Assembly: GCA_964019135.1 (NCBI GenBank)
Contig: OZ025257.1
Span: 22,118,352 to 22,182,351, forward strand
DNA length: 64,000 nucleotides
Direction of reading: 5' to 3'
Source: Arenicola marina
Lineage: Eukaryota > Annelida > Polychaeta > Arenicolidae
The notes under the pieces are model-generated. The model was not told the origin of the DNA. It did not search any database and worked only from the letters and a program-made list of their open reading frames with translations. The position numbers and the translations under genes were made by a program. Shown one piece after another: positions 4,557 to 64,000 of the stretch; the first letter of the stretch is position 1; each line of letters starts with the position of its first letter.

Positions 4557-7500
4557 GAGTATACGTTAACATGAGGGAGGCGAATGCCACACTGTGTGTG
4601 TGTGTGGGTGGGGGGGGGGTGGGCTAAAATGGAATTTGAAATTCAAGCTCCCATTCGGTGGTGGCGCTACGCAAGATCCGCTTTATGGAGCCCTAGCGGA
4701 GCGAGTCGGAGGCAGAGAGTTGGGCCTATTACGGATCTCCGAGAACATGACGAGACTTGGCGACCGAGGGGTCAGTGTCCGTTTAAAAAAACTAAGAGTG
4801 GCGTGGGGGTTGGGGGGGGGGGGCGGCTGGGGGGCAAACAAACTGGAAAGTGTGAATAACAAGGAGAAAGCAGAGACAGTTGTATGTAGTGGATCGCGGT
4901 AAATAATGAATTGTACAAATAGCAATCCCCCAAAAGGCCAAAACATCCAAGAGTTGCAAGATGGCAATCGCGGGGATAGGCTCAACGATAGCCCCCCCCC
5001 CCCCCCGCTCTCCCCTCCCACCATACTTTTATAACAACGTCACTATATGATGTATAATATAACGCAGTGCCAGCCCATCTGTTCTGACTCAGCCACACAC
5101 CGTGCCTTCACATCACTTACTCTGACCAGAGAATGACTCAAGCACACACTCGTCCACTCTTTTTTGCTCGCCACATATGGTGTGACTGTAAGGTTACTTA
5201 CTACACTTGGTCCTCTCCTTCTGTTGAATCATTAAGACCCCGGGCCAATCAAATCAAAACCTGTGGTACTCGATCCAGATACGACCGCCTGTGATGGTAC
5301 ATGTATAGTGGTAGACATCCGGGTCTGTTTCCACGCAACGCCACAGCACCATTTTTTGTCCTTTCGAATATCCGGTCGCTAGTGGGTGAAAACAAGTCGA
5401 CAGCGACGGCCCGGGCAGCAGCGACGGGGCTTTGATGTCTGCGGGGCTGGTGGCGAAATTTATTAGTCTTCATGTGTACGCAGATGGCTTTTAACACCAA
5501 GACTTAATTATTTTGAGACCTGGATTAAATTTGTTTATGTGCAACGATCCTTGTCAGGGGGGTGTGTGCAGAAATTCTTGAAAGGGGGGCACAATAAAGT
5601 GTTCCACCAAAGAGTGTGTGTAAAAGCCTGAGACGTAGGTGACCGTGGTGCACGTTACGTACTATATTTGCCCACTTTATAATCGTTGGTAAGATAGAAC
5701 ACATAAACTAGGAAGCTTGATGCATTGTGATATCTGAGGAGCGGCCAGGGGGCACAGAATGTGAAAGAGGGTGGGGGGGCACAGATATACTTTAAGGTCT
5801 GAAAAGGGGGGGCACGTGCACCTGTGTGCCCCTCCCCCCCCCCCCCCCCACCGCCCCCTAGACACATCATGCTTGTTTATTAATAGCCGTCAAGAAATGC
5901 ATTAAAATCGTCGGCAGACCAATTCTGGCCGATGGTAAATTGCAAACACTTGCGCGAGTTGTGTCGCCCTCTAGTGGGCCGTTCCGCTGTTCAATGATCA
6001 CTGCGGTACCGACCAGTAAGCGATTTCTTTACGCTATTTCACGGTTCGGGGCCGACAGGCGGTGGTCTGTTTAAGGCGAGGTGACGTTTTCTCCAGTGTA
6101 ACCATTTGGTTGAGGCCCTGAACTGTTATTGAGGCGTCTTATGCCCTTGTGTAATGGTTCGTGGGCCCGGCATCGCAGTACCTTAATTACCAGTCTTGCC
6201 TTAACGTTATTTGTACAGATATCAATTAATATCCCGCCAATTAAAAGAAGGACATTCGCAAAATATGCTGCAATGAAACGTTAGCATCAATATTAAACTG
6301 TTACATTTGCTTCAAATGGAATCATATATGTCACTTTTGATTCTTTGCTGATACGTGTGGTTAGTTTGAAACAACGTGTAGTACGTCACCGATTTGTGTG
6401 TAGTTCACTGTAGTTATGATTTTGACTTATACCATGGGCTGTTATACACAAATACTGGCAGATATTAATGCCCCCCCCCCTACCGCCACCCCTCTCTCTC
6501 CCCTACCGCCACCCCTCCCCCTGCCGCCCCCATACCCCTACCACCCCCTTCCCCCTATCGCCCTCCTTCCATTCCAGCTGGCCTGACTGAATGACTGATG
6601 CAGCTCGTCTTGTTGACATACGAAGCTGGGATTGTTGTGTACACACATTGTGCCCGCTATTTGTGTACACACATTGTGTCTAATATTTGTGTACACAATT
6701 CATGTGTAAAGTTTCTCAGTGTATCGATTTCACTAACTCCATATCGAGCAGCCGTAACGATGGGGTCACGTGATGTCTAGTATTTTGTTTATAGTTTTTA
6801 GTTTTATAGGATTTTATAGGCCCATATGTTACAGTTACAAAACCCGTCTGTCAGCACCTGATGCCGTGATATAGATTATAGATTTGTAGATCTGCCGCCA
6901 GCAGTGTAACTAAAATAAGTGTTATAGATAGGCCCGTGAGTTCCGAATATAGTAGCAACGGTCAAAACAGTATAACCCATAAGGTAAGCAATTGAAATAT
7001 GGGCGTGTAGGTGTGGTATTTAAACAAAATATCACAGTTATACTATAACCGTTGTACAGGTCAAATATATATACCATATGTGTTGTATATATTTTGTGCA
7101 CATGTACCGGTGGCGGATCTAACGAGGGGGGAAGTTTTTTTCAAGTACCCTTTTTGAGAAATAATTGCAGGTTTTTACATGCAAAAAGAAGTGTGGGGAT
7201 CCCCCGGGCCCCCCCCCCCCACCACCCACCCGTCGTACATTTTTTTTTTAATTTTCTCACTCCTTCTCAAATTCCTGGAACCGGCCCTATGTACACAACA
7301 GAAATAGTTAGTAATATAAGCCAGGGTTGTAGCTGCGGTAGACTACGGTAGGCAGTGCATACAAGCTGTAGTCCTGGCTTTATCCTCTTTCATCGGATAG
7401 CATACGCGGCCGGACCTCTCGATGCGACCGCGGACCGCTTGAGACCCTCCTCACATTACCCCCCACCCCCCTCCCCCGACCTCCCCACCCCGAACCCACA

Positions 7501-8995
7501 CCCGCCCATGCCCGCACTAACACCCCATCCCTCCTCAGCCCCGCACCCACCCCCCCCCCCCTTCCCGCCCATAGAGCCTCACCCCTCCTCCCATCTGTAG
7601 GCGTGTGCACAATCTGTCTCTGTCTCCGCGCAGACATGGGCTTTCTGACTCATATTAATATAATGTCATATAATATTATGTGTCTACAAATATGTGACTG
7701 CTATCTTTATTGCCCATATTAGGCATTCATTCCTTGATAACGCAAACTCATAGGCTTTATATATTGTCTAGAACAAGACCTGCCCTTATGTGTGTGCACT
7801 TTGCGGAGATTTCTTCGGATAAGTGTCACAATTTAAGTCAGTGTTATTGATATTTGAACGATATCGGGTGCTAAGTGCTAAGAGCTGGCGCATACAATGT
7901 TTGGAATTACTGTATGCATAGTAAGCATTGGGGTAACTGGGTCGAGGCGGACAGTCAGCCACACATACACCGAATGAACTCATTTACAAAGTAGGTACCT
8001 ATAAAAATAACTACTTAGCCTATGTCGAGATTACATATTTAGATTTTCCAATAAAGCCGTATATACGAAGGATTAAGACTGCATTTATTACGACGGGCCT
8101 CCTTGAAACGAGATAGCGTGGACGACCCCCCCCCCCCCACGCCTTTTTCTCTCTCGCCCCCCCCCCCCTCTCTCTCTCTCTCTTTCTCTCTTTTCTCTCT
8201 CACATAATCCACACTTAGCTTACGCATGAATACGGACGAATATGGACAAATTCTTCCGTATGCAACGGAGGAAGTTATGGTGCAATCAGTGCGATCTTAT
8301 CACGACCAAGAAGTAACTTCCACCAAAGGACACATTCTCTGCCTTCGACTCACTCCGCTAGGGCTCCATTATATCTCTGTTATCGCCTACGTCCTCAATG
8401 CATTTTTACACTCGCTCGCCAGGGCGGGGCTGCGCAAATCGACAGGAAAAATGCGTCGCGCATTTCTACAAGTTAGTGCTGGGACCCAGCCTAAGCCTAA
8501 TAACACATGAAATCAGGTGATGAAAAGAAAGAGTTCTGTCACAAGGCTAGTTATTTTTTATTCTTAAAAATTATAGTGTTGCAAGAAATTATAGCTGATT
8601 TTACCTTTTTTCAAGAATCTGGAAATTTGCTCCCGGCCGACAGCAGCGGTAAAAGCTAGCTTGCGTAGCGCCACCGTGCGGGGAGCTTGCAAAGGACACG
8701 CAAATTGCGGACGCGAAATGAGATGTTAACCATATTTGGACCGAAAGATAATGTAAGGGGCGGATGGGTTTAATGATAGTGGAACTTTTGACAAACCAGA
8801 AAGAAAAAAACGTTCTGCTCTCTGGTCTCTGCCTTCGTCAAGCTCCACTAGGGGGCTAGACTAGGCTAATGTGTTTCAATCGGAGCTTGCGAAGCGCCGC
8901 CGTGCAGAAATCGACCAACTAAACCCCGAAATGAGTGACTAATAGGAGTATTTAATATTTGAACTGTAACAGTTTTTATTTCATATCTCCAATAG
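3041..8995. other. Non-coding stretch, homopolymer-rich, no supported gene
   Basis: No ORF with recognisable protein features. It holds many C or G homopolymer tracts (3666-3698, 3768-3789, 4088-4105, 4292-4312, 4811-4824, 4991-5006, 5828-5850, 8127-8138), a GGGGTCCA-rich block (3565-3610), C-rich low complexity at 6470-6570 and 7450-7590, and CT-rich repeats at 8157-8200. The first exon(s) of the coactosin-like gene, about 27 residues, should lie in or before this stretch but I could not locate them. Confidence 0.5.
4516..4552. repeat. (ATA)n/(AAT)n microsatellite
   Basis: Uninterrupted trinucleotide repeat of about 12 units. Confidence 0.9.
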
Positions 8996-49899: not shown

Positions 49900-50097
49900 C
49901 TGTCCGAGATTACTGAGTTGCAGGTCTGTTAGCTGCTGCTTTGTCATTGCCTTGTGGTTAATCACATTGTTCTTCTGATGGGTGACTAGTCGCCAGGCGA
50001 AGACCTGGTTCGACGGGGACATTTCGTTCAGCCAATATATGTCGCTGGCTTTGTCGCTGTGTATCTGCTCCGCTGCCTGGGTGTTGGAGTAGTGAGA
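49900..50097 (-). pseudogene. KDZ/HMGXB3-like ORF, C-terminal part after the insertion
   Basis: The minus strand reads SHYSNTQAAEQIHSDKASDI, then YWLNEMSPSNQVFAWRLVTH and QKNNVINHKAM. The NTQAAEQ...LN.MSP...F..RL..H..N pattern is the C-terminal end of the HMGXB3-like/KDZ family. It continues the sequence at 63294-63560, from which it is separated by the 13.2-kb TIR element. Confidence 0.75.
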
Positions 50098-50548
50098 GGT
50101 GAGCTTTTTGCTACCCCCATGACCCCCTCACCCCTCCCCCCCCCCTCCCCCCCCCTGTGGTCGTGCTATAGCGCGACCGAAAATTTTGAAATATCGGTTT
50201 GAAAATGCCCGCTCACGAGTTAATGAGGTCATTAATTTTTGTCAAAAGTCTTTGTTTCCGTGCTATAGCACGGGGTATAATTAGCATAAATTAGTCTGTA
50301 AATAGGTATATTCAACAAGGTTATTAATCATTGTGTGTCTTATGTTCTCGTGCTATAGTACGAGTGAATGAAGAAGACATATTGTTTGAAGTCTTCAATC
50401 TGCGATCAAGTACTATTATGAATAGGTAATAGATGAACAAGTCCTTTTGCTTTGATGAAACAGTAAATCATTTAATCGCTATAGATATCGCCATGTAAAA
50501 TGTATATTCTCGCGTTACAGTACGATTAATCGTCAATGACACGTGTAT
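50098..50548 (+). repeat. Left terminal inverted repeat of the 13.2-kb element
   Basis: About 450 bp, with roughly a dozen substitutions by eye versus the right TIR. Four palindrome-like motifs occur at about 100-150-bp spacing: TCGTGCTATAGCGCGA (about 50161), CGTGCTATAGCACG (about 50260), CTCGTGCTATAGTACGAG (about 50353) and CTCGCGTTACAGTACGA (about 50508). They may be transposase-binding sites. It includes a C-rich stretch at 50135-50155. Confidence 0.9.
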
Positions 50549-52587
50549 TGGCAGCTGATTACTATGTGGTGGCAGTAAAATTCACTGTTGTATATGATAC
50601 GAGGCGTCATTGTGTACTGATGGAAACATAAGAAGCTTGTGTTATAGGTCCACCCTTCCCCCTGCCCCCCTTTCTCTCCCCCATCTATTCACTGACGATT
50701 CTGAACACGTGACTCCCATGCTACACCTGCCCTCTTCGTCAACGATGCAGTTTTAAAATCATAATGGAGTGAATGGTGACGTCATTGACATTTAGTCATC
50801 TGTTTGTTCAGGACCTATATAAAACGGGAGAGATGAGTTAATTGGTTGTTTCTTTATGTTGGCAACCCCTTGACCTCTGTAGCCGACGTTCTGTTTGCTT
50901 GCATATGCATCCAAAAGAAGGTAGGGAGGGTGAAGGATATAACATCAATCGCCTATGTCATTGCTATACACGTTCTTGGGGAGTGTCTGTGGGTTTTTTA
51001 TTGCATTGGAGTTACCAATGTTACGAGCACCCCACATCCGACGGCACGTTTAAACGAGTTTGGGGAAAGAGCGACTGGCTCCCTCCACCTCCATACACCA
51101 TACACTCACAATATTCCTATTAGGTTATTTTGCTGTTACTCCGTCAAGTGAAAACTATTATGGTGCATGACCGCTTTTCTAGTTCATTAAAAGAAGCAGT
51201 TGCATTTGCTTGTGACATCTGCAACCAATGTCGCATTCATATAACTCATACACCGTTAAAGGAATTATTCTGTAAGTTTGAACATTGTTACTCGTTAAGT
51301 CAGTGTAAAGTAACATATATGTTAAAAATGTATTGTATTGAACTTTATTTGTTTTTATTGCACTTTTAAAAGCAGCTAAAGTAAAAACACATACTAACAT
51401 AAATTTTACCAACAATAACCGTATCCATCCATGTCAAGGAACGTAGTCAACAATTAACTTTAGCGTAATTTAAATAACTCACAAATCTCATATGTCACCA
51501 CGTCACAACTCATTCGTAGGTTTCAACAAGACTTTAAACCATTTGCAAAAGTGATTATAAAAGTGAATGCATCAACTTTAAAAATGATATTTTACGTATT
51601 GTATGTATGAAGTATTCGTTTTCCGTCACGTGTTTATATATTTTTTAAACTATCAAGTGTTACAGTAACACAATAAGTTATGCATGTATCATATATTTGT
51701 GAAACATCCATTTACCTTATTGCAATACGTCTCGCTTTACACAAACACTTACAACTTTGCAACTAGTCTTGTAGAATGTCATGTTTCATAAAGTTAACAA
51801 GTTATTGAATCAACAGATTGACGCGTGTTACGCGTGCGTGTATCGCGAATGTGAACTGAATTAAAAGTCGTCATCACGTTAACGAATTAGGAAGTGAGTA
51901 TAAACACTGCCATGTAATTTTTAGTGAGTAGCATTTGCGGTAAAAGAACTTCGCTATTGAAATAGCGTTAGCAACAGGCAAGTACTAATTCTACACAATC
52001 ATGACAAGTTCTTAAATTTTATTTAGTGAACATTGCAATTCCGAAAACAACGATATTTGTGGTGACAACATATCTGCAATGAAGTAAGAGAGAAGTAATT
52101 AGACATAAAAAATAGCGAAGCCAACGTGATGTATGTGCGAATTTAATGAATTGAATTCACCGGTATATTCAGATACATTCTAAACTACGGTGCGTAGAGA
52201 AGTATTGAATAGACTCATGACTGCCAAGAGTTTATCAAATGAATAACATTTGGAACATAACACAATATATGGATAATATAAACCTAATACTTTTGATTAC
52301 AATAAAACTCACGCGAGTATTCTGAGAGAACATGTTGTAAACGGAATAAATCATCAGTTTGTAACCATACAAAGAGATGAATGAAACATATCATTTACTT
52401 TATCTCGTAACATACATTCTAAACTTAGAAAGAGGATCGTATTAAGTAGTTGTCATAGCAAACACTAACATAAACATAACGAATGAGTTATCTGTCTTTT
52501 TTGGTATATCTTGGTGCAATGTATGACGTATCTAACTCGTGTTTTCTCTCTGCGTAGAAGGTATGTTAAAACTGAGAGTATGTATCC
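50549..52587. other. AT-rich interior of the TIR element, no gene
   Basis: About 2 kb, mostly AT-rich, with short open frames that resemble no known protein. A transposase could not be found here. Confidence 0.5.
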
Positions 52588-52603
52588 TTTTTTTTTTTTT
52601 TTT
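52588..52603 (-). other. Poly(A) tract (minus strand) downstream of the CDA-like gene
   Basis: Sixteen T on the plus strand, that is A16 on the coding strand, about 215 bp past the CDA-like stop codon. It may be the relic of an mRNA tail if the gene is a retrocopy, or a simple homopolymer. Confidence 0.45.
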
Positions 52604-52684
52604 ATACATCAAGAAGTTAAACAGATAGAATAGAATTCTCATGAGTTGTGATGTCAAGGACAATGAATCAGTATTCAGTTTGGT

Positions 52685-52690
52685 TTTATT
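52685..52690 (-). promoter_or_regulatory. Candidate polyadenylation signal AATAAA
   Basis: AATAAA on the minus strand about 130 bp after the CDA-like stop codon. It is a match to the canonical hexamer in a plausible position. Confidence 0.45.
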
Positions 52691-52818
52691 ACACATATCC
52701 CAAAACAGTTTTCTTACTCTTAATCAACCAGATTATGTAGGAATGTATGGTAATGTAATTTTTAGAACCCTTAACTTCCTACATGAATTGATACTTCTAG
52801 TATCTAATTAATCTTACC

Positions 52819-54084
52819 TTAAGCTATCCTGAAAGAAATTTCAGGGTCCACTCGTCTCCTGCGAGAATGTAACAATATGTTTAGTTGATTTATAACATGC
52901 GCGCGCTGCATGCGGTCGTACCGGATGATGATGATGTAGAGACCAATCAGGATCGCCGTCTGCCAGATCCAAATGGTCTCTACATCCATGACGTCACGCA
53001 GAGACGCCTTCGTAAGGGTCCTGTTGTAGTTCGGATCACACTTCTTGTTGTAAACTCGCTTCTCCTCGCAGTCCCAGGCCGGTGGGATGGTCCGCTTGGA
53101 GGTGGGATCCGCCATATAGGCCAGGAGCTCTTGCATGGTGATGATCCAGACATCTTCCAACTCCGTCACCCTCTTCAGGAAGGACTTAATTCCGTCCTTA
53201 GCTTTCTGGTTCTCCAGCGTCTTGGAAAAGATATTAATCTGCATTGGCGCGCGTGTACCTCTATAGAAGGTCATGAACTGCTGAAACAGGAAGTTGGCAA
53301 CTTGGTCGCCGCTCATTTGCACGATGCAATCATCCAGGACAGCGCATGAGCGGCTGGGGCCAATCAGCGAAGTGGCTGGTATTTCCCAGAAGCCCGGATA
53401 CGTGTCATACGGGCATCGCTCTTGCTTCCCGGTCCGACATCTGAAGCCCAAGTCCCGGAAGCTGGTATCCAGGGTGAAGGGCCAGGGGTAGACGTCGGAA
53501 GTGGAGTTGTCATGGGGACCGGCGGATAACGACGAGTCGTACGTGAACCCGCTGCTGTATAACATCTGCAACTGCGCGTCCCCTCCCGGTTTCTGCTTCT
53601 GCGCACGCATACCGACGATGTGGTTCTCACCGATGTACGCGTTCTCCACCAGGTGGCTCCGTTGTCCACCGATGGCGGCGTACCAGTCGCTAGGTGGCAC
53701 CAGCCCAGTGACATTCATCCCGCCCAGCGCGACCTCGTGACCTCTGACGTACATCCGGTGCACGGCGCAGTCGTCGGAGAATGAACCAACGACGAAGAGC
53801 GTGATGCCGACAGGACATCCGTTTGGGTTCTTCACGGAGTCCGGGAACAGCTCCTTCATGGCCTCCCTCTGTCTGTCTGCCACAGTCCCCGCATAGGTAA
53901 AGAGGACAACCTGAGGCGGTTTTTCCACGGGCGGGACGTCGTACTGGCAGTAACACCCGGGGAGGGCGCAGTTAACCGGGTCGCACCCCACGCTCTGGCC
54001 CTCCAGCGGGTCAAACCCAATCAGGAGTATCCAGATTACCAGGAGGGCCAAGTAACCAGACATGGATGCCATAACAGACGCCAT
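52819..54084 (-). CDS. Chitin-deacetylase-like membrane protein, catalytically degenerate, intronless
   Basis: A 421-codon uninterrupted frame. Residues 1-30 (MASVMASMSGYLALLVIW...) are a signal peptide or anchor; Met6 is an alternative start. Then comes CDPVNCALPGCYC, the cysteine motif that precedes the NodB polysaccharide-deacetylase domain in animal chitin deacetylases. The NodB domain spans about 57-320. The metal/catalytic motif TFDDA is FTYAGT here (residues 62-67), and H(S/T)xxH after GHEVAL is GGMNV. Both Asp and both His are therefore absent, so deacetylase activity is unlikely; a chitin-binding or structural role is inference. PWPFTLDT and EDVWIITMQELLAYM follow. A C-terminal membrane helix (about 370-387, IWIWQTAILIGLYIIII) and a basic cytosolic tail follow. 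Animal CDA genes usually have introns; this one has none. It lies inside the 13.2-kb TIR element. Confidence 0.9.
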   Translation of the reverse strand: MASVMASMSGYLALLVIWILLIGFDPLEGQSVGCDPVNCALPGCYCQYDVPPVEKPPQVVLFTYAGTVADRQREAMKELFPDSVKNPNGCPVGITLFVVGSFSDDCAVHRMYVRGHEVALGGMNVTGLVPPSDWYAAIGGQRSHLVENAYIGENHIVGMRAQKQKPGGDAQLQMLYSSGFTYDSSLSAGPHDNSTSDVYPWPFTLDTSFRDLGFRCRTGKQERCPYDTYPGFWEIPATSLIGPSRSCAVLDDCIVQMSGDQVANFLFQQFMTFYRGTRAPMQINIFSKTLENQKAKDGIKSFLKRVTELEDVWIITMQELLAYMADPTSKRTIPPAWDCEEKRVYNKKCDPNYNRTLTKASLRDVMDVETIWIWQTAILIGLYIIIIRYDRMQRAHVINQLNILLHSRRRRVDPEISFRIA

Positions 54085-54156
54085 AGTAACGTAATGTTAA
54101 AAGATACCACTCTCATTGACCGAAAGAGCTGTCATTGGTCTACCAGGCGCGGATGC

Positions 54157-54483
54157 CTATTGATTATGATTAAATATGTCCAACACCATAGGCAAACAAA
54201 GTGAGGAATACAGGTCGACGGTCGTGGCCGGAAAACCGGTTGGCTTGAAATAATCCGGGTTGCAAAGTTGACGGTGTTCCAGCAAAACTCTTATGGAGTT
54301 TAACAAGCTTAAGATGCTAAGCATGATCCCCTTCAGCTTGACAAAAAGGCAAACCCACAATGCTTTCCATAGGACGCGGAGGGCCTGCAAAACTGCCTTA
54401 CAGCAAAACACCCAGTGTACAGCGCACAATGCCACAATACCGGCAGCCATTGGCGGGTTGTCGAATTCTGCAACCGATCGCAC
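54157..54483 (-). CDS. Unassigned ORF with hydrophobic segments
   Basis: 108 codons upstream of the CDA-like gene on the same strand. Contains MAAGIVALCAVHWVFCCKAV and VCLFVKLKGIMLSILSLLNS, probably one or two membrane segments, then CNPDYFKPTGFPATTVDLYS. Not recognised. It may be a small membrane protein, an upstream remnant or chance. Confidence 0.3.
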   Translation of the reverse strand: MRSVAEFDNPPMAAGIVALCAVHWVFCCKAVLQALRVLWKALWVCLFVKLKGIMLSILSLLNSIRVLLEHRQLCNPDYFKPTGFPATTVDLYSSLCLPMVLDIFNHNQ

Positions 54484-54729
54484 GCACGCACGCTTAGCAA
54501 ACGAGCTCTCGATTTACAACCGATTTTCGCTACGAATTTAATGAGTCTTCATTCAGTTATAGGAATTATAGGAAGATATTCCTATACTCAAAACGACGGA
54601 AATTCTGCATTTGTGGTGACTGTGAACCATATAAACTTTATACCTCAGGACTATTGAACAGGCAAGGCGACATATTTATTCTCGCACCTGCTGCCGGTTA
54701 CGAGTTAAGCCTAGATGCTAATCCCCTAA

Positions 54730-54792
54730 CAGCAGCTTTTACATGGTAACTTTAGCCGACTAAGCCCCGTAGCCGGCTAAACTGCGTTCGTG
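54730..54792. mobile_element. Partial copy of the TTAGTCGACTAAGCCC foldback MITE
   Basis: ACATGGTAACTTTAGCCGAC then TAAGCCCCGTAGCCGGCTAA matches one arm of the hairpin at 17608-17775. Only one arm is present, abutting the LINE start. Confidence 0.6.
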
Positions 54793-55044
54793 AAATCCGC
54801 CACAGGTATGAAGTGCGAAGGACTGCCCACCGGCTCGTGCCCTTTCAGCCGTGACGGGCTCGGCGTAGAGCTCACACAGGGCGACTTGACGCTGTGCGCC
54901 CATTGCCGCGACGTTCGCTTCCCAGCCTGCGGGGGAGCCCCACCCCCCTCCCAGCCGAACCCCGGCCTCTGTGTGGATGCCTGCCGGAAGACGGACTCCA
55001 AGTTGGACACCATACGGTGCTTTCTCTGCCGGGTGTGGTTTTAC

Positions 55045-55890
55045 TAGCCCCATCAGATGGCTTGTTATGGATTTTATATTGTTCTATGTCCATAACAGCC
55101 ACACCGTAGGTCCCCATGTTTGGTCCCAATCACCATGAGAGGTCCACTTTATAAGTTGCTAGAGGTTTATATACAAAACACTCACCTTTAATTGTTACTT
55201 TTTTAGGTTCCAGAACATTATATTCCAGGAGTGTCTGACAGAAATAATTTTCCTGCTACTAATACTCACTCAATTCTTTTATTTGGTCCGTTAACAACTT
55301 TTGCTGACAAGTTTTGTTGTCTTGTGTTGTGTCGTCTCACGAGACCGCTAGATGTCACTCGTTTCTTCCGGTAAACACCCTCTGGCGAACTGGTTGCACA
55401 TTTCCCAAAGACCTGGTTCCAACACTCTTTCGGTTTATTAACAGTGACACGTGTTTTTCTGTCAGGTGTAGGCAGAAGACAGGTGACACTTACTGTTGAT
55501 AAACAGAACGGGAACCAGGGCTTTGACAAATGCGCAGCCAGTTCGCTAGAGGGCGTTGACCGGAAGGAACTAGCGACATCTAGCGATCTCGTGGGACGAG
55601 ACAACACAAGAAGATGGCAACGCTAGCCAGGAAAACTTGTTAGTGAACAAAATGAATGAGTTGAGCTAGTGTTAGTTGCATGAAACGTATTTCAGTCAGA
55701 CACTCCTTGAGGATAATGCTCCTGAACTTAAACAACTACAAATTAGAGGTAAGTGTTTGGTGTCAAAACCTCCAGCAACTTGTAAAGTGGACATCTCACC
55801 GTTCTTTAGACTGAATATGGCGGCCTACGCCGTGGCGGTAAGGACGGCCTATCAGTCTGCCGTAACCATTAACGCCATCAAACGGGGCTA
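55045..55890. mobile_element. 846-bp foldback element, 9-bp target duplication
   Basis: Inserted in the LINE PHD finger. TGGTTTTAC occurs immediately on both sides (55036-55044 and 55891-55899). The ends are TAGCCCCATCAGATGGC and, reversed, TAGCCCCGTTTGATGGC. The whole element is an imperfect inverted repeat of about 420-bp arms around a centre near 55472. For example AGGAGTGTCTGACAGAAATA pairs with AGGAGTGTCTGACTGAAATA reversed, and CGCTAGATGTC occurs in both arms. Long TIRs and a 9-bp duplication suggest a MULE-like non-autonomous element. Confidence 0.9.
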
Positions 55891-56879
55891 TGGTTTTACC
55901 AGCTGTGCGTCGCGGCCACGGAGGCAGAGGCGGCGGGCCTGTGGACTTGCCCCACATGTCGGACGGTACCCAGTGCTGTAATGAGCCTCCACGCCATGGT
56001 GACAACACTGACGACCACCCTGACGGCAGTCAACAACGACTGACTAGACTAGAGGACCGAAACAGCGGCTTGCAGAAGGACGTAAAGGACAAGACCGACC
56101 GCTGCGACAAGCTGACGAAGGAGGTTTCAGACGTGAGACGGGAAAACGCCAAGCTGACTGCCAACATCCAGAAGACGACATGGACAACACTACGGGCCGG
56201 ACAGCCAGACAAGACGCTCCTCATCGGGACAAGCCTCATCAGAGACGTTGACGAGAGGAAGCTGAAGGACACGAGCGTCAACAGTGTCTCTGGAGCGACA
56301 CTTCCGACCCTGACGGACCGACTGAAGGCCATCCTCAAGACGTTCAAGCGCATTGTCATCGTGGGAGGGGGCAACGACTGCTCCAATCGCGGCGCTTCCC
56401 TGGACACCATCGTGGAGCGCTTCAGTAAGCTCATCCGGGCTGCCAAGGACAAAGCTGCCTCCGTGATGGTGTCTGCCATCTGTCCACGACTTGGCACGGA
56501 CATGAGGGAACGCATCGACATGGTTAACTCCGGCCTGCAAGGACTACGCGACGACATGGGATGCGACTTTACCGACAACTCCCCCCTGTTTAGGCTTAAT
56601 GACGGATCCTTCAACGACGGATACATGACGAATGACGCGACACATCTGACGTGCAAGGGCCAGAACAGACTCTGCCAACTGCTCAAGTTGACACCAACGG
56701 ACGATGCGGACAAGGACAAAGACGTCTGTACCCGACCCCGTAAGACCCCCAAGGACCACGGCGGACGTGGACGCAGCCTGACGGATCAGGACGGACCGGC
56801 GACGGGACCAGGACGACGACATAACGCGACAGTAGACAGGAGACCTGCGTATCGCATCGCCGACCGCGGAGAACGGGAC

Positions 56880-57115
56880 CGTGACGGAGACGACTGGACC
56901 CAGGTTCAGCGACGGCACCGTGACGGAGGCGAGTGGACGCGGGGACAGCGACGGCACTGTGACGGAGGCGAGAGAACGCAGGTAGAGGGACGGCACCGTG
57001 ACGGAGGCGAGTGGACGCGGGGACAGCGACGGCACTGTGACAAAGGCGAGTGGACGCAGGTAGAGGGACGGCACCGTGACGGAGGCGAGTGGACACATGT
57101 AGAGCGACGGCACCG
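56880..57115 (+). repeat. Coding tandem repeat in LINE ORF1
   Basis: Seven imperfect units of about 33 bp encoding RHRDGGEWTRGQR/QVEGR. They lie between the esterase domain and the zinc knuckles and keep the reading frame open. Confidence 0.85.
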
Positions 57116-58093
57116 AGCCCGACGAGAGGCGACAGACAGATCCCGCGCGACAGAGAAGACGAACGACCAGCCTAGGTGTTACTACTGCGCGGAGGAAGGA
57201 CATGTGACCGACAACTGCCGACATGGACACTACGTCACTTGTTACACTTGTGGTCGATCGGGCCACAAGGCCAAGTTTTGTAAATAGGTATTCGGCAATG
57301 CAGGAAGGGCCGATATGTTAAGTGATGGCTCCACTGACGATTTAATATTATGAAGCAAGTCTGATTTACATTTTATGAATGAGGGGAGCTGTCAATGTGA
57401 TTTTACTGGGCAACTAGGCAGTAAAGCCCATATTTTAAGCGATCTAACCGACACAGATGTTGTAATGATGAGCTTTGTTTTATGGAAGATGACATGTCAC
57501 GTGATGTTATAACGATACCATGCAAGGTAAAAGAGTCGAAAGATATTTTAAGCCGTGCTGCAGATAGTGTAAGATACCGGCCTGATCAGCCTTTTATGAT
57601 GAATGAGGATCATACATGTGCCCCTACCGACATATTAGCTACACCCAAGAATAATGAGGTAAGGTACGACCCCACATCTGTCCAGGACTGCCGCAATCAT
57701 GAAAAGGTAAGCGAACGACAGGAGAATTTAGTGGCAGCGATCGAAGCCAACGAAGATGAAGAGTTATTTGGGCTCGCGCCATTTCATCAGAGAAATGTAA
57801 AAAATCTCAAGATAGCCCACATTAACATAAACAGCGTACGACATAAGTTTGGACCGCTTAGCCAAGCACTGGGAAAAGGCGCATTAGATGTCTTGTTCAT
57901 TCAAGAGACTAAGTTAGACGATAGCTTTCCGGCAGGCCAATTTACTTTAAATGGGTACAAGGTCCACCGAAATGATAATACAGACAGCTCTGGAGGCATA
58001 ATGGTGCAGGTAAGAGAGGATATACCACACCGGCGGCGCAAGGATATAGAAATTAATGAAGACGAGAAGGGGCGTATCGATTTCATCTCATAA

Positions 58094-61000
58094 ACCGAAA
58101 ATAGATCTGATAATGCATTCTCCGTACTTTAGGTACTTCCGGTAGCCTTTAAAAGTCAAAACGAGGCTGACCTCGACCTTCCTTCTCCATCTTGGCTTTT
58201 GAAGAAGATAGACGTGTGCTTCCGTCGGAAGTTTTTTATCGTGCGACATCGCCGCCCACTTGGGGGCATCGAAGGGTATTATGGAGGATGTGAGTGCTGG
58301 TTCACCTCCTGGACCGTCGGGGGCCTGTTTGGCCACCGACAATACCGTTTCGGACCCCGATGGGGCCGTGAAAGCCGCCTCCCCTCTGGGGTTGGTGGAA
58401 ACAAGTGCCACGGGCCTGGCGACCGGCCGGCTGGACTTAGGGACTTACAAGATCCCTAAGAAACGCAAAATTGACGTACCGGAGGTGCAGGGCCTGGACG
58501 TCAGTTTATCGTCCTCGGAATCCGAAGGACAAGCGTCATCGTCAGACGAGGGAGACAGCTCCTCTCCCGCTTCTTCGTGTGTGTCGGACCCCCCGGTCAG
58601 TGAGGTCGCTTCAGGTCCAGGGCTCGACATGTTCGATCCATTAGGCCAGAAAAAGGCAAAAGACTGGAAATTGGACCCTGAACAGGACGGTTTCATAAGG
58701 AAATATTTCACTGAGTGGCTTGGGGAGGAGGTAGCCAAGAACACGGTTTTGGCTGATAACCCTCTCTCAAAACATGATTCGTTGGAGCCACACAAGCTGG
58801 ATGATGACATTGTGGAGTTGTTGGACAAGGGGCAACAACCAGCTGCCAGGTTGATAGATGGCAGTTTTGTCAAGATTCAATCTAAACTGCTTGACACCAT
58901 GGGTCCAAAATGTGGAAGCTGCTTTTCTCAGCAAAAAATGCTAAGGACAGGTCATGTGACCTCAGAGAACTCCTACTGCTGGTGGAAAAAAGCATTGTCC
59001 TGATAGGCCAGACGAATGTGCTCACAAACTACAACAGGAGGTGGAATGTGCTATGCAAGTTCCTCCGTGATCACAAGAAAGCCAGCCATTGGCTCCGCCA
59101 AAATGAAGCTTTGCTGAATGCTAACAGGAAAGAACTGTTTGGTGGAAAATTCTATCGCGCTCTATATCATAAGGCGAAGGAATCGAAACGTTCGCGCCAG
59201 ATCAGACAGTCCCTGGGAGCCACTTCGTTTCCACCCAAGAGACAACATGTTGAGCGCAAGCCCTTTCAGAGGACCCCTCCCACGAGACCAAAAGGTCTAC
59301 CAAAACCGAAGTGGGAGGGGAAACCACGGTTTTCCCGACAAGGCCAACAGCCCAGAGGGGGGAAGGCCTCACGGTATGTATCCTTTACCTCAGTCTCAAA
59401 GTCTTCTGGTATCACCAGTAAGTCAGGATCCCCCCATAACAATGCACAACAGCATAGTAGGGTTGAACTTGTCCTCTCCAGGGATAACCCAATGGCCTGT
59501 GGGAGGGAGGATCAAGCATTTTGCCAACAATTGGGGAAAGATCACAAAAGATCCAAAGATTTTGAACATGGTAAACGGGTGTCACATAGACTTTGTGACC
59601 ACTCCTCCACCAAAACTCAATTGCTCTTCCCCAGCTCTCTCAAGAGAAGAACATACAAAAATCTCAGAACAGGTACAAGAGTTGTACTCAAAAAATGCCA
59701 TCGAGCGAACCATGAACACACCGGATCAGTTCATGAGCCATCTGTTTCTGCGACCAAAGAAAGACGGGTCCCAGCGTCCAGTGTTCAATCTGAAACAGCT
59801 GAATGCTTATGTAAGATACGAACACTTCAAGATGGAAGGGATGGTGTCAGCTTTAAACCTGATTCAGGCGGGGGACTGGATGGGGAAACTCGACTTAAAG
59901 GATGCATATTTCTGCATTCCGATGGCCCAAAATGTCAGAAAGTATCTGAAGTAGTTCAAGGTCTTGCCCTTCGGGCTAGCATCAGCTCCCCGCTCGTTTA
60001 CCAAACTAATGAAACCAGTGATTGCCCTCCTTCGACGAATGGGGATCAGAGTGGTCATCTACCTAGACGACATGCTCTTTTTGAACAGGAACAGAGAGGG
60101 GTTGGTGTTGGACATCAACACAGCACAGTGGCTGCTGGAGGCACTGGGTTTCTCGATCAACAGACCCAAATCAGTGACAGTTCCCACACAAACCCTAGAG
60201 TTTCTGGGTTTCTAGTTGGATTCGATCAAAATGACGGTGGCTTTGCCATTAGAGAAGGTGCAAACTATTCAGTTAGAATGCCAGGAATTGTGCCAGAGAA
60301 ACAGAACTTCTGTCAGAGCTCTTGCAAAACTGATAGGCAAGTTAACAGCAACGCTTTTGGCTGTGGTACCAGCACCGCTGAATTATCGCCTCCTACAGAT
60401 GCAGAAATCGAAAGCTTTACTGGCGAACAACCAGAATTATGCAGCTCATTTGACTTTATCACCAGAGAGCAAGGAGGAATTGCAATGGTGGATCAAAAAT
60501 CTGGACATGTGGAATGGCAGAACGTTGATTTCAGTCATACCAGACCTAGTCATCACTTCGGACTCCTCAATGAAGGGATGGGGTGCGGTGTGCGAAGGAG
60601 TGACCACCCAGGGTCTCTGGAGTGCAGACGAAAGGAAATTACACATAAACTGCCTGGAACTGCTGGCAGCAACTTTCGCAGTGCGAGCCTTCACACGAGA
60701 CCGATCGGTCCAGCATGTACACCTGCGAGTGGACAACAGTGCCACAGTGGCTCAGGTCAACCGGATGGGGGGCACAAGGTCAAGGAACCTGTTGAAACTG
60801 ACAAAAGAGCTTTGGCACTTTTGTCTGTCGAAAAAGATCATGCTTACTGCGGAGCATCTGCCAGGAATTCACAACACAGTTGCAGACCAGGAATCCAGAA
60901 TCTACACCGATGGCAGCAACTGGAAGTTGGACTCGGGGATATTCAAGGCAGTAGCACAGAAGTGGGGTCCCATTCAAACAGACCTGTTTGCAGACAGAAC

Positions 61001-62700
61001 CAATGCCCAGACACAAAATTATGTGAGTTGGAAACCAGACCCATTTGCACAGACAACCGATGCATTCAGCATCCCTTGGGCATGTCAGGGGAGCTATGCG
61101 TTTCCTCCTTTTTGCCTGATAAACAAGTGTCTGGCAAAAATCCAGAAAGAACAGGCCACTGTCATTCTGATTACTCCCACTTGGCAGACGCAGCCGTGGT
61201 TCCCAGTCATTCTGGGAATGCTAGTGGATCAACCTGTACTGTTACCTCCGCTACAGAGGTTACTGACGTCACCAAAAGGCGACCCGCATCCGCTGATCGT
61301 GAGAGGAGATCTGAAATTAGCGGCTTGGAAGGTCTCAGGGAACGCACACTTGCAAGAGGTCTTTCAAGCCGGGCTGCCGAGATTTTCTTGCGAGCCCGCA
61401 GAGAGGGAACTAAATCCGCTTACGGTTGCTCCTGGAATAAGTGGGTTAGCTGGTGTGGTGGACGGAAAATCGCTCCATTTCAAGCCACTCTGGGAAATAT
61501 AGCAGATTTCCTGGCTGATGTGTTTGACAAGGAAAGGAGTATACAACCATGAATGGGTACAGATCAGCTCTCTCGGCTTTTCACCCCCAGATAGAAGGAT
61601 ATCCGGTGGAGCAACATCCAGTGATCAAAACTTTGCTACAAGGGATGTTCAACATGAGGCCCCCTAAACCAAGGTATGTGGACACGTGGGATGTAGATAT
61701 GGTGCTCAGACACATTCGTTCCCTGGGAGACAATGGGAACCTAAACCTCAAAACACTCACGCTTAAGGTGACCATGTTGTTAGCCTTATGCAGCGCAAAC
61801 AGAGGCTCTGAGTTGCAACAGCTGAACCTGAAATACATGAGGATGAAGGGGGAGGACATGGAATTCTATATCCCTGGTCTCACAAAGACAAAGAGACCTG
61901 GTAAACCTCACAGTAAGGTATCTGTATCGCACTACAGATCTGATGGGCTTCTTGACCCAGTACAATGCATAAATAAATACATACAACGGACAGCTCCACT
62001 CCGGGAAAGTGAAGCTCAGAAAGCCCAAATGCTCATCAGTTTCATCAAGCCACATAACACAGTGGCGAAATGCTCCGTTGCAAGATGGCTTAAAATGCTA
62101 ATGGCCCAAGCAGGGATTGACACAAGTAAATACAAGGCTCATTCAACGCGAGCTGCAAGTACCTCAAGGGCAAAGCATCAAGGCATGAAAACAGAACAAA
62201 TCTTAGAAGCAGCCAACTGGTCAAATGCTTCAACTTTCTACAATTTCTACCATAAAGAAATTTACGGTTTATGAGATGAAATTGGAAATTTCATCAGTGC
62301 TTGTAAATTTTATTCAACAACCCATGAGAGCGGTGTGGCAGTCACTTGGCACAGATGTATGCGGAGAATACTGTCTATTTTACTTATATTTCAAATGTCG
62401 AAATTACTCCATGTCACGAATCTATCGAGAGTATTGGTCTCCAAACACCATGTGCAATGACAACTATATTCATAATTTCCAATCTGTTCACTTTCCGCGT
62501 ATCACTCGCCGGCAGTCCCCGCGTTTTATGCAAACCGCGTGCAAGACCTCTTTACCCATTGTCTAAATTGTCATGTATAATAATATGATATGAAGGTGTA
62601 TATTTTTGTGATACTAAGTTTTTGACCACGATAGATGTTGTAGCGGGTAATGGTATTCATGTAGTGATATAGGAATAAAAACTTTTCAAAATGGATGATT
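58094..62700 (+). mobile_element. DIRS-type YR retroelement, broken fossil
   Basis: A tyrosine-recombinase retroelement of the DIRS group, in + orientation. Parts in order: a gag-like acidic/Ser-rich protein (about 58.26-59.0 kb), a reverse transcriptase/RNase H region (about 59.4-61.2 kb; motifs GKLDLKDAYFCIPM, LPFGLASAPRSF, VIYLDDML, DNSATVAQVNRMGG), and a tyrosine recombinase of about 61.3-62.27 kb (KAHSTRAASTSRA with the conserved HxxR). It is broken, with a handful of interruptions, but all parts remain recognisable, so it is probably young. It abuts the truncated LINE on its left. The right border and its own terminal repeats were not resolved; 62700 is approximate. Confidence 0.85.
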
Positions 62701-62808
62701 GTATTTGCGTTAATATGGTTTACTCGATATATATCCTTAGGTTTTTACAAACAAACAAACATATTACACAGCTTATAGGATCTCACATGGCCTGATTACA
62801 TTGATTAT
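62275..62808. other. Tail of the DIRS-type element and unassigned AT-rich sequence
   Basis: No gene. The missing 3' part of the LINE was looked for here and not seen. Confidence 0.4.
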
Positions 62809-63293
62809 ATACACGTGTCATTGACGATTAATCGTACTGTAACGCGAGAATATACAGTTTACATGGCGATATCTATAGCAATTAAATGATTTACTGTTTC
62901 ATCAAAGGAAAATGACTTGTTCATCTATTACCTATTCATAATAGTACTTGATCGCAGACTTCAAACAATGATTAATGACATAGTTAACACCTTAATTGCC
63001 TCCTCCACCACCCATGTCTTCTTCATTCACTCGTACTATAGCACGAGAACATAAGACACACAATGATTAATAACCTTGTTGAATATACCTATTTACATAC
63101 TAATTTATGCTAATTATACCCCATGCTATAGCACGGAAACAAAGACTTTTGACAAAAATTAATGACCTCATTAACTCGTGAGCGGGCATTTCCAAACCGA
63201 TATTTCAAAATTTTCGGTCGCGCTATAGCACGACCACGGGGGGAGGGGGGGGGGGAGGGGTGGGTGGGTCATGGGGGTAGCAAAAAGCTCACC
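62809..63293 (-). repeat. Right terminal inverted repeat of the 13.2-kb element
   Basis: Inverted copy of 50098-50548, near-identical except for about 45 extra bases near 62965-63010 (TTAACACCTTAATTGCCTCC and neighbours). The same four CTATAGCACG-type palindromic motifs are present. It ends GGGGTAGCAAAAAGCTCACC at 63293. Confidence 0.9.
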
Positions 63294-64000
63294 ATATACT
63301 ACTTGTTGGTGTGATCTGCCAAATGCTTCACAGTGCTTGCCCGGCGCAGCATCGCCGCCAGCTGCTTGCAGTTTTCCTGATGAAACCAGTCCAACAGCAT
63401 GTACCCATTGCGTGTTCCAGTCAAGGGATGGGAGTCTGCCTCCATGGTTTGCTGTGACAGGGACCCTCCTTTGCGGCTTCCATGTTGCAATCGGTGGCCT
63501 CTACGAGGCGGTCTTCGTGAAGCGAGAATAATAGTTGAAGGAACCCTCACGGGCAATTGTCTTCTGACTGTGGTTGTACTGCGCCATCAGATTAAGAGGT
63601 TGACCGGTCGGCGGGTAACTACCGGTGGAGTCTGGGGTTCTCTCCTCCACCGCTGCTCTTTCTTCCGTCTCTTGCATCGCATAGAGGTTTGTCAGTATGT
63701 CTACGCTTAATGTGTGCTCACAAATACTTTTTGTGCAGCTTTGCATCGCAGTGAGGACATACAACAGTGTTGTCTTCATATAAGTTCGCTGAAAGTTCAG
63801 CGTCAGAGGTGGTTGAGGTCAACTCGTGATGAGAAATCCCCTTAACTGAATCACGCCTTGTTTACAACGAAAGTGGTTCATTAGTTGTGTTTCGACCTTG
63901 GCCTTTCTGTTGGGCTTAAACTTGGTCGGTGGACAAATTGGGCAGTGACCATTTGTGTACTTCCCTTCACAACCAACATTGCACCCAGTGGTGATGTTAT
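63294..64000 (-). pseudogene. KDZ/HMGXB3-like ORF, part before the insertion
   Basis: On the minus strand, entering from beyond the window: CEGKYTNGHCPICPP, a zinc-finger-like CPHCDAKLHKKYL...HIKRRH in another frame, then ADSHPLTGTRNGYMLLDWFH and QENCKQLAAMLRRASTVKHL up to 63310. HP(V/L)TG...Y.L.D.FH..N....A..LRR is the family's conserved C-terminal region, and the next conserved block (NTQAAEQ) is found at 50.08 kb. Frame changes show it is decayed. Confidence 0.7.

Follow-up and report, generated by a model that had tools for sequence, protein, structure and literature searches.

A 13,216-bp unit on contig C10 of the annelid Arenicola marina is, on the sequence evidence of its ends, its target-site duplication (TSD) and the family-B DNA polymerase of related copies, a Maverick/Polinton derivative. 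We read it as a palindrome-type, non-autonomous Maverick whose interior was probably replaced through DNA patching by a block from contig C1 (probability roughly 0.78). Within the window, by which we mean the whole 64,000-nucleotide stretch analysed, the unit and its parts are arranged as follows.

50082..50087, no strand: left copy of the 6-bp target-site duplication TGTTGG
50088..63303, no strand: whole Maverick/Polinton-derived unit, delimited by inverted repeats, ends and duplication
50088..50548, plus strand: outer part of the left terminal inverted repeat (TIR), equal to L070 545-1021
50549..52898, plus strand: inner part of the left arm, equal to L070 3518-5837 (97.9% with gaps, 18 mismatches)
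52819..54084, minus strand: 421-codon chimeric open reading frame (ORF), codons 1-395 from the C1 chitin-deacetylase-like gene and 396-421 from the element arm
52899..54177, minus strand: segment copied from C1, comprising the gene and about 90 bp upstream of its ATG (L069 2665-3944, 99.7%)
54177..56885, plus strand: 5′ portion of a LINE whose ORF1 has an esterase domain; the two C1 copies that bear a LINE (L069 4448-6246; L011, L072) are collinear with it
55049..55890, no strand: foldback (inverted-repeat) insertion, absent in both LINE-bearing C1 copies, with a flanking duplication of about 9 bp, TGGTTTTAC
56886..58079, plus strand: remainder of LINE ORF1, which has a CCHC knuckle and ends at 57287, followed by the first part of a second ORF (57482-58093)
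58080..62282, plus strand: element that we read as a DIRS-type retrotransposon (tyrosine recombinase, 23-bp inverted end repeats)
62303..63303, minus strand: rightmost part of the Maverick unit, with 62300-63254 corresponding to L071 6086-7004 and, in reverse orientation, to L070 597-1534
63304..63309, no strand: right copy of the target-site duplication TGTTGG

The unit begins with AGTAGT and ends with ACTACT, and TGTTGG stands as a perfect 6-bp repeat directly outside both ends. When the unit and one TGTTGG are removed, the minus strand reads ...LAAMLRRASTVKHLADHTNTQAAEQIHSDK... in a single open frame of 191 codons, which upholds the proposal of the initial annotation that the block was inserted as one. 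The initial annotation named this flanking ORF KDZ/HMGXB3-like; a Pfam scan of two fragments of it (the joined 191 aa and an adjoining 173-aa ORF) gave no family at E ≤ 0.01. The near-identical inverted repeats reported to bound the block are also borne out: 50.09-50.55 kb and 62.81-63.30 kb pair through three blocks, each 66-250 nt long and 88-97% complementary, and in a gapped alignment the two ends agree at 88.7% of 488 columns, the differences being 15 mismatches and otherwise indels. Dating from the divergence between left and right TIRs was set aside because the family's ends differ in sequence and type. The match of the unit's right end stops within a shared 1.06-kb repeat and so does not assign this end to type A or B. 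The sole N run in the window lies at 1991-2190, and the unit itself is free of assembly gaps.

Passages of a study of vertebrate Mavericks describe picking out these elements by (AGT)2//(ACT)2 ends and perfect 6-bp TSDs, and give the end criterion as (AGT)2//(ACT)2 or (AG)3//(CT)3 (PMC8097293). AGTAGT//ACTACT is present in the window and in all five other end pairs examined. A matching 6-bp TSD accompanies five of these six pairs, window included (four of the five others); the one miss is C10:26982793/26998656. Our search for family-B DNA polymerase, in which 53 of 53 candidates were scored, returned 32 matches to PF03175 with a best E of 5.3e-6, the model being a distant fit to these polymerases. 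Polymerase matches lie inside several copies of the TIR unit, whose TIR has at least 56 entries in our list, or within about 10 kb of them; one, C18:8676974, falls within a copy (C18:8671443-8687355) that has TIRs at both ends and a matching TSD. The window copy has no polymerase match. An 87-aa integrase-like fragment in the spacer of a related copy on C7 is a weak match to rve (E 1.3e-4; 22.6 bits, below the Pfam cut-off of 32.6). End motif, TSD and polymerase in relatives together rule out an unknown TIR superfamily. The earlier statement that no established DNA transposon family is known to carry such a gene gives way to this assignment, host-gene cargo being reported for nematode Mavericks in a passage of PMC10680173.

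The window's left arm matches the arms of copies on C7 and C12. The C7 copy is a palindrome of 16 kb with 6.2-kb arms that align over 6,228 columns at 98.1%, and, with a relative of this size, the 4-6 kb once suggested for the original unit is probably wrong. In this palindromic group the arm ORF contains two PC4-domain stretches; the window's left arm lacks about 2.5 kb, including the PC4 ORF, between the TIR (to 50548) and the inner part (from 50549). The ORF has at least 150 copies, and among those listed 32 pairs point outward, against one inward and one same-strand pair. Polymerase was not detected in 31 of the 32 outward pairs listed; 18 unpaired PC4 ORFs, also among the copies listed, have a polymerase match 3.7-5.2 kb away. 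The group's arm mark, which corresponds to codons 395-421 of the chimeric ORF, is not listed for 10 of the 32 PC4 pairs. It also occurs 4.3-4.5 kb from a polymerase match at two places on C5 (11718496 and 17494318) and is thus not strictly palindrome-specific. A palindrome on C9 (L074) has two polymerase matches and a 200-N gap at its centre, and because of this gap we set it aside as a second, independent palindrome.

It is possible, at somewhat less than even odds, that the genome houses a family of palindromic satellite Mavericks. One Maverick end, together with a PC4-domain gene of single-strand DNA-binding type, would have been doubled into a snapback while the element replicated by protein priming. 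This founding element would then have lost its polymerase and been amplified in trans by autonomous relatives, with the PC4 ORF kept under selection, and breaking palindromes might be prone to take up host DNA, as may have happened in the window. Among the matches listed from the open-licence literature (titles and abstract openings), we found no description of palindromic Mavericks; among those listed in separate queries, neither Polinton nor chitin deacetylase was found.

The initial annotation described an intact 421-codon host-type gene; the ORF is there, with codons 1-395 being host-type and the remainder element arm. Over codons 1-395 the ORF copies, at 99%, a gene that C1 has four times, and the gene DNA is 99.7% identical to C1 over 1,280 bp, so the suspicion of a recent event holds for the gene copy. 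The C1 protein terminates in RMQRAQGNCS; in the chimera the last 5 codons are replaced by 26 arm codons and the frame stays open. Over the 395 codons there are three differences from the nearest copy, C1:3207664, and four from each of the other three. All three differences from C1:3207664 are amino-acid changes, and the chimeric copy thus gives no sign of selection at the sequence level, where so few changes carry little power. A 51% paralog 10 kb from one C1 copy argues for C1 as the home of the gene.

An AlphaFold model of the protein (mean pLDDT 75.9) has as its best PDB match the insect chitin deacetylase 5zns (E 9.1e-23), and homologs named chitin deacetylase occur in molluscs. The predicted fold is that of NodB/chitin deacetylases, related to animal enzymes of this type, in agreement with the chitin-deacetylase-like gene originally proposed inside the unit; a Pfam scan of the protein gave no match at E ≤ 1. 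The catalytic and metal-binding motifs of CE4/NodB proteins are TFDD and HxxxH. FTYAG and LGGMN stand at the aligned positions in the window protein, and the usual metal-binding motifs are absent from it and from the C1 copies, making an active enzyme unlikely.

Of the 99 ORF matches, the near-identical ones are the window copy and the four on C1. The annotation had named TIR copies that never enclose the gene elsewhere as evidence against an element carrying it, and this is nearly the pattern found. The unit does contain the gene, but no other gene-holding element appears among these matches to show that it was moved as mobile cargo. None of the at least 56 TIR entries listed is on C1, and none of the at least 150 PC4 copies listed lies within 1.5 Mb of the four C1 gene copies. 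The predicted chimeric gene is a passenger of one element, and its capture looks like a one-off accident.

On C1, two of the four gene copies have the LINE 5′ part next to them, so the gene came with part of a neighbouring LINE, in a single copied block of about 3 kb of C1 DNA. The LINE is thus not simply a later insertion, as had been suggested for all the inner elements; the foldback, which lies inside the block, and the DIRS-type element, at its far end, probably are. The latter had been recognized from the start, and its tyrosine recombinase (61549-62274) matches PF00589 at 28.8 bits (cut-off 27.1). Relative to the LINE-bearing C1 copies, the window's LINE part is short of 504 bp at 54177, and GT-AG or other intron-like edges are not seen at this gap. 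A 67-bp piece at 54736-54802 is missing from C1:3207664 but present in the C1:3256899 copy, which led us to reject it as a window insertion. The exact parent accordingly matches no single present C1 copy, with codons nearest C1:3207664 and the 67-bp piece as in C1:3256899. At the C1 counterpart of point 56885 a minisatellite follows the LINE in C1, whereas the window continues with LINE sequence; the right border of the block is therefore unmappable, which requires either a second source or a parent resembling C1 but with a longer LINE. The second ORF (57482-58093) has no Pfam match; we take it for the LINE endonuclease, truncated by the DIRS-type element. At the left junction, 52898, the arm and C1 sources overlap by about 1 bp.

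These features suggest the following history. A non-autonomous, palindrome-type Maverick/Polinton integrated into an open frame on C10, leaving the 6-bp duplication that is seen today, and the left arm points to its former state as a full palindrome. Before or after integration, the inner end of the left arm, the spacer and most of the right arm would have been lost. The C1 copy, gene and adjoining LINE 5′ part, now stands in their place; this replacement is visible in the structure, and we infer its order and mechanism. The unstable palindrome may have broken, the break being patched with C1 DNA through end joining or template switching, a step that would have fused the gene to arm DNA with an open frame. 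Transfer by DNA-level patching rather than retrocopying is most likely, given the roughly 1-bp junction overlap and the 504-bp gap without intron-like edges. A spliced retrocopy was rejected on the same gap and because the four 99% C1 copies themselves show no interruption across the codons that match.

Alternatively, an extrachromosomal Maverick replicating by protein priming could have captured the gene and then integrated, loaded, as one unit. In favour of such true cargo, intact ends and a perfect TSD bound the unit, the passages on nematode Mavericks (PMC10680173) offer a precedent, and the frame is still open after three codon changes in 395. Such low divergence is, however, equally compatible with capture before or after integration, the changes carry no mark of selection (with little power to find one), and a second element with the gene was not found among the 99 ORF matches; we consider this course rather unlikely. 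Retrotransposition by the LINE is an improbable route, in which a transcript begun upstream, on the gene's antisense side, would have yielded a cDNA of antisense gene plus LINE that inserted into the left arm. Gene and LINE do stand head to head, collinear in two C1 copies and the window, and a 5′ truncation such as the one proposed at 52898 is what LINE copies usually show. Against this route, the 504-bp gap has no GT-AG edges, and neither a 3′ end or tail of the LINE nor a target duplication is seen; the 3′ side is unreadable because the LINE breaks off within its second ORF on reaching the DIRS-type element. An assembly artefact fusing an element copy to C1 sequence is very improbable: dozens of near-identical family copies are difficult to assemble, as the gapped C9 palindrome illustrates, yet the unit has no N run, its 504-bp deletion and foldback are unlike either LINE-bearing C1 copy, it combines codons nearest one C1 copy with the 67-bp piece of another, and TSD and empty-site frame match exactly.

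Replacement of a Maverick interior by C1 DNA would make the window a nearly base-by-base record of how a Maverick comes to hold almost a whole host coding region, in which a collinear DNA block, gene plus neighbouring repeat, is joined to the element to form a chimeric open frame. Genes have been proposed to pass from animal to animal through capture by Mavericks, and a case as early as this one, and not amplified, opens the capture step itself to study. The palindromic PC4 group, if confirmed, would be a satellite of a virus-like element, tying genomic palindromes to that element's replication. Nematode Mavericks with wosp/krma cargo, which reportedly spread gene families between species, likewise have a host-derived gene within a Maverick unit, whereas the window has one copy in one element with no sign of spread. 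Pack-MULEs and similar gene-capturing TIR elements, as described in passages of PMC6431247, also hold host DNA between the TIRs of a non-autonomous element; the unit in the window belongs to another superfamily (6-bp TSD, Maverick ends) and encloses, in a single copy, almost an entire coding region instead of pieces. Snapback, or palindromic, defective AAV genomes (PMC8235507) are inverted-duplicate forms of part of a linear viral genome; AAV is unrelated, and the window's group is a genomic family with a shared arm/spacer junction, so the likeness is one of analogy only. With Mavericks/Polintons (polintoviruses), the unit and its relatives share AGTAGT//ACTACT ends, 6-bp TSDs, family-B polymerase in related copies, a weakly matching integrase-like fragment and, in the C7 relative, a size of about 16 kb, and the palindromic group differs from them in its 6.2-kb arms, its ORF with two PC4 stretches and polymerase undetected in 31 of 32 pairs.

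Removing the unit together with one TGTTGG leaves a 191-codon open frame spanning the join, so that its integration into an open frame was precise. TGTTGG abuts the unit externally at both outer ends, 50088 and 63303, which each read AGTAGT inward. These observations bear out the one-block insertion proposed in the initial annotation, and inverted-repeat comparison of the window, C10:22118352–22182351, found its inverted repeats to be real.

Features of the unit and its relatives
50088–63303: Maverick-derived unit bounded by terminal inverted repeats
52819–54084, minus strand: chitin-deacetylase-like open reading frame (ORF)
58080–62282: DIRS-type element, between LINE and Maverick right end
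C1:2809819, 3207664, 3218853 and 3256899: gene copies, 99% identical, two with a LINE just upstream
C7:10081501–10091000 (L070) and C7:10091001–10098600 (L071): 16-kb palindromic Maverick derivative with 6.2-kb arms, read in these two pieces

The initial annotation knew of no established DNA transposon family with an animal NodB-domain gene; the ends, 6-bp duplications and polymerase-bearing relatives of the unit place it among Mavericks. A left-end search of the 867-Mb genome gave at least 56 matches, a lower bound because 40 of 319 candidates were scored. Flanking duplications agree on both sides in five of six end pairs examined, namely the window (TGTTGG), C18 (AGTTCT), C19 (TGCACT), C10 at 24.27 Mb (CACATT) and C7 (GAAGAC), and do not agree at C10:26.98 Mb. 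Vertebrate Mavericks have been selected by such ends and 6-bp duplications (PMC8097293). DNA_pol_B_2 matches the genome 32 times (best E 5.3e-6, a distant fit of the model): the C18 copy encloses one match between its ends, and further ones lie within about 10 kb of ends. The C7 copy holds an integrase-like fragment, a weak match.

Within the unit, codons 1–396 of the ORF are 99% identical to the four C1 copies and 51% to one more C1 place. At 52898 the DNA switches from C1 sequence to that of an arm, the long inverted-repeat half of palindromic Mavericks, with about 1 bp common to both. As the C1 protein ends in RMQRAQGNCS, 5 native codons have been exchanged for 26 arm codons. The supposed intact 421-codon host-type gene is thus open and host-type through codon 395, and its last 26 codons are arm. 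In two C1 copies (C1:3207664 and C1:3256899), homology to the window passes the gene into LINE ORF1, to 56885; in the remaining two it stops 25 bp upstream of the ATG. The LINE had been considered a possible later insertion, which does not simply hold for the part to 56885, collinear with the C1 gene neighbourhood. Beyond this point both LINE-bearing copies enter a minisatellite, and the window continues into more LINE, the DIRS-type element and the Maverick right end. The minisatellite array occupies L069 (the C1 gene and LINE locus) 6247–7900, where LINE ORF1 ends beside two gene copies. Two differences set the window apart from both LINE-bearing copies: 504 bp are missing at 54177, and an 842-bp foldback is present. 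The foldback (55049–55890) has halves about 75% complementary and a roughly 9-bp duplication, TGGTTTTAC. Because a 67-bp piece (54736–54802) is present in C1:3256899 and not in C1:3207664, but the codons are nearest C1:3207664 (3 of 395 differ, each altering an amino acid; the other copies differ at 4 apiece), the parent was their common ancestor or a copy outside the assembly.

Named best relatives of the protein are from animals, mostly molluscs, and its AlphaFold model (pLDDT 75.9) best matches an insect chitin deacetylase in the PDB (E 9.1e-23). Chitin deacetylases usually have metal-binding motifs; these are absent from the window protein, which has FTYAG and LGGMN at the aligned positions. 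None of the codons differing from C1 falls in these positions, so motif loss is older than the copy. The C1 copies represent recent duplication of a probable pseudoenzyme. We read the model as having a putative C-terminal hydrophobic helix ahead of the replaced tail.

The C7 arms are 98.1% identical over 6,228 aligned columns around a 3.6-kb spacer. Each carries an open 250-codon ORF, and the one scanned contains two PC4-domain stretches (E 1.1e-15); no polymerase was detected in the 16-kb palindrome. A genome search with this ORF gave at least 151 matches (150 of 324 candidates scored). Among the 150 listed, 32 outward-facing pairs lie 5–26 kb apart, 19 of them at 12.4–12.9 kb, with one inward and one same-strand pair. 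Set against the 32 DNA_pol_B_2 matches, these listed matches include 31 outward pairs with no polymerase match inside and 18 unpaired ORFs with a polymerase 3.7–5.2 kb off. The remaining pair, on C9, does hold polymerase matches and was set aside for its central 200-N gap: L074 (C9:1304501–1309500) has 2.1-kb inverted arms (99.6%) with one polymerase match each around this gap, and is either a true palindrome or a scaffold artefact. The arm stretch that ends the window ORF occurs at 71 places, window included (18 outward pairs, no inward). Of the 32 outward PC4 pairs, 22 have it among the listed places; of the 18 polymerase-bearing unpaired ORFs, none does. Counting against a clean split are the ten outward pairs without it and two C5 places where it lies 4.3–4.5 kb from a polymerase match.

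Type A ends continue into the PC4 ORF, and type B ends depart from the shared repeat at L070 1604 (loci L042, L046, L050 and L052); the C7 and C10:24.27 Mb palindromes are A-A. At least eight full-length matches at ≥97% to a 3,201-bp arm-end/spacer query, itself included (40 of 848 candidates scored), and the same arm ends in the C12 copy (L075) point to amplification of a founder. Variants of the PC4 ORF were counted over 21 rows, which include one locus twice, three rows with indels and one with a stop; four rows shorter than 600 columns were left out. Of these variants, 36 are nonsynonymous, 20 are synonymous and one is a stop. Their ratio to an expectation without mutation-bias correction is 0.48 (p 0.009), indicating at most modest purifying selection. 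A protein search found a single relative (224 aa, 100% over 90% of the query). The C7 spacer contains, at L070 6933–9029, a 2.1-kb repeat that is present elsewhere, with several opposite-strand pairs ~10–14 kb apart (for example C1:13976675/13988869), and that is perhaps another palindromic family.

The sequence itself establishes the precise integration, the chimeric block and its derivation from C1. As a whole, these data are best explained by integration of a palindrome-type Maverick whose interior was replaced by a C1 block (probability about 0.78, lowered from 0.80 because the arm stretch also lies near two polymerase matches); a broken palindrome would have been patched at the DNA level, yielding the chimeric block. 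Capture of the gene before integration predicts further loci with the same junction, but among the 99 places in the genome matching the ORF no further element-borne copy of the gene was found. The same count leaves unsupported the earlier proposal that the element carries the gene as mobile cargo; the unit around the gene is a Maverick derivative in which the host segment is a one-off. By title or start of abstract, no description of palindromic PC4 Mavericks was found among the open-licence papers listed, and they, compared with the gene-holding unit, are the more unusual part.
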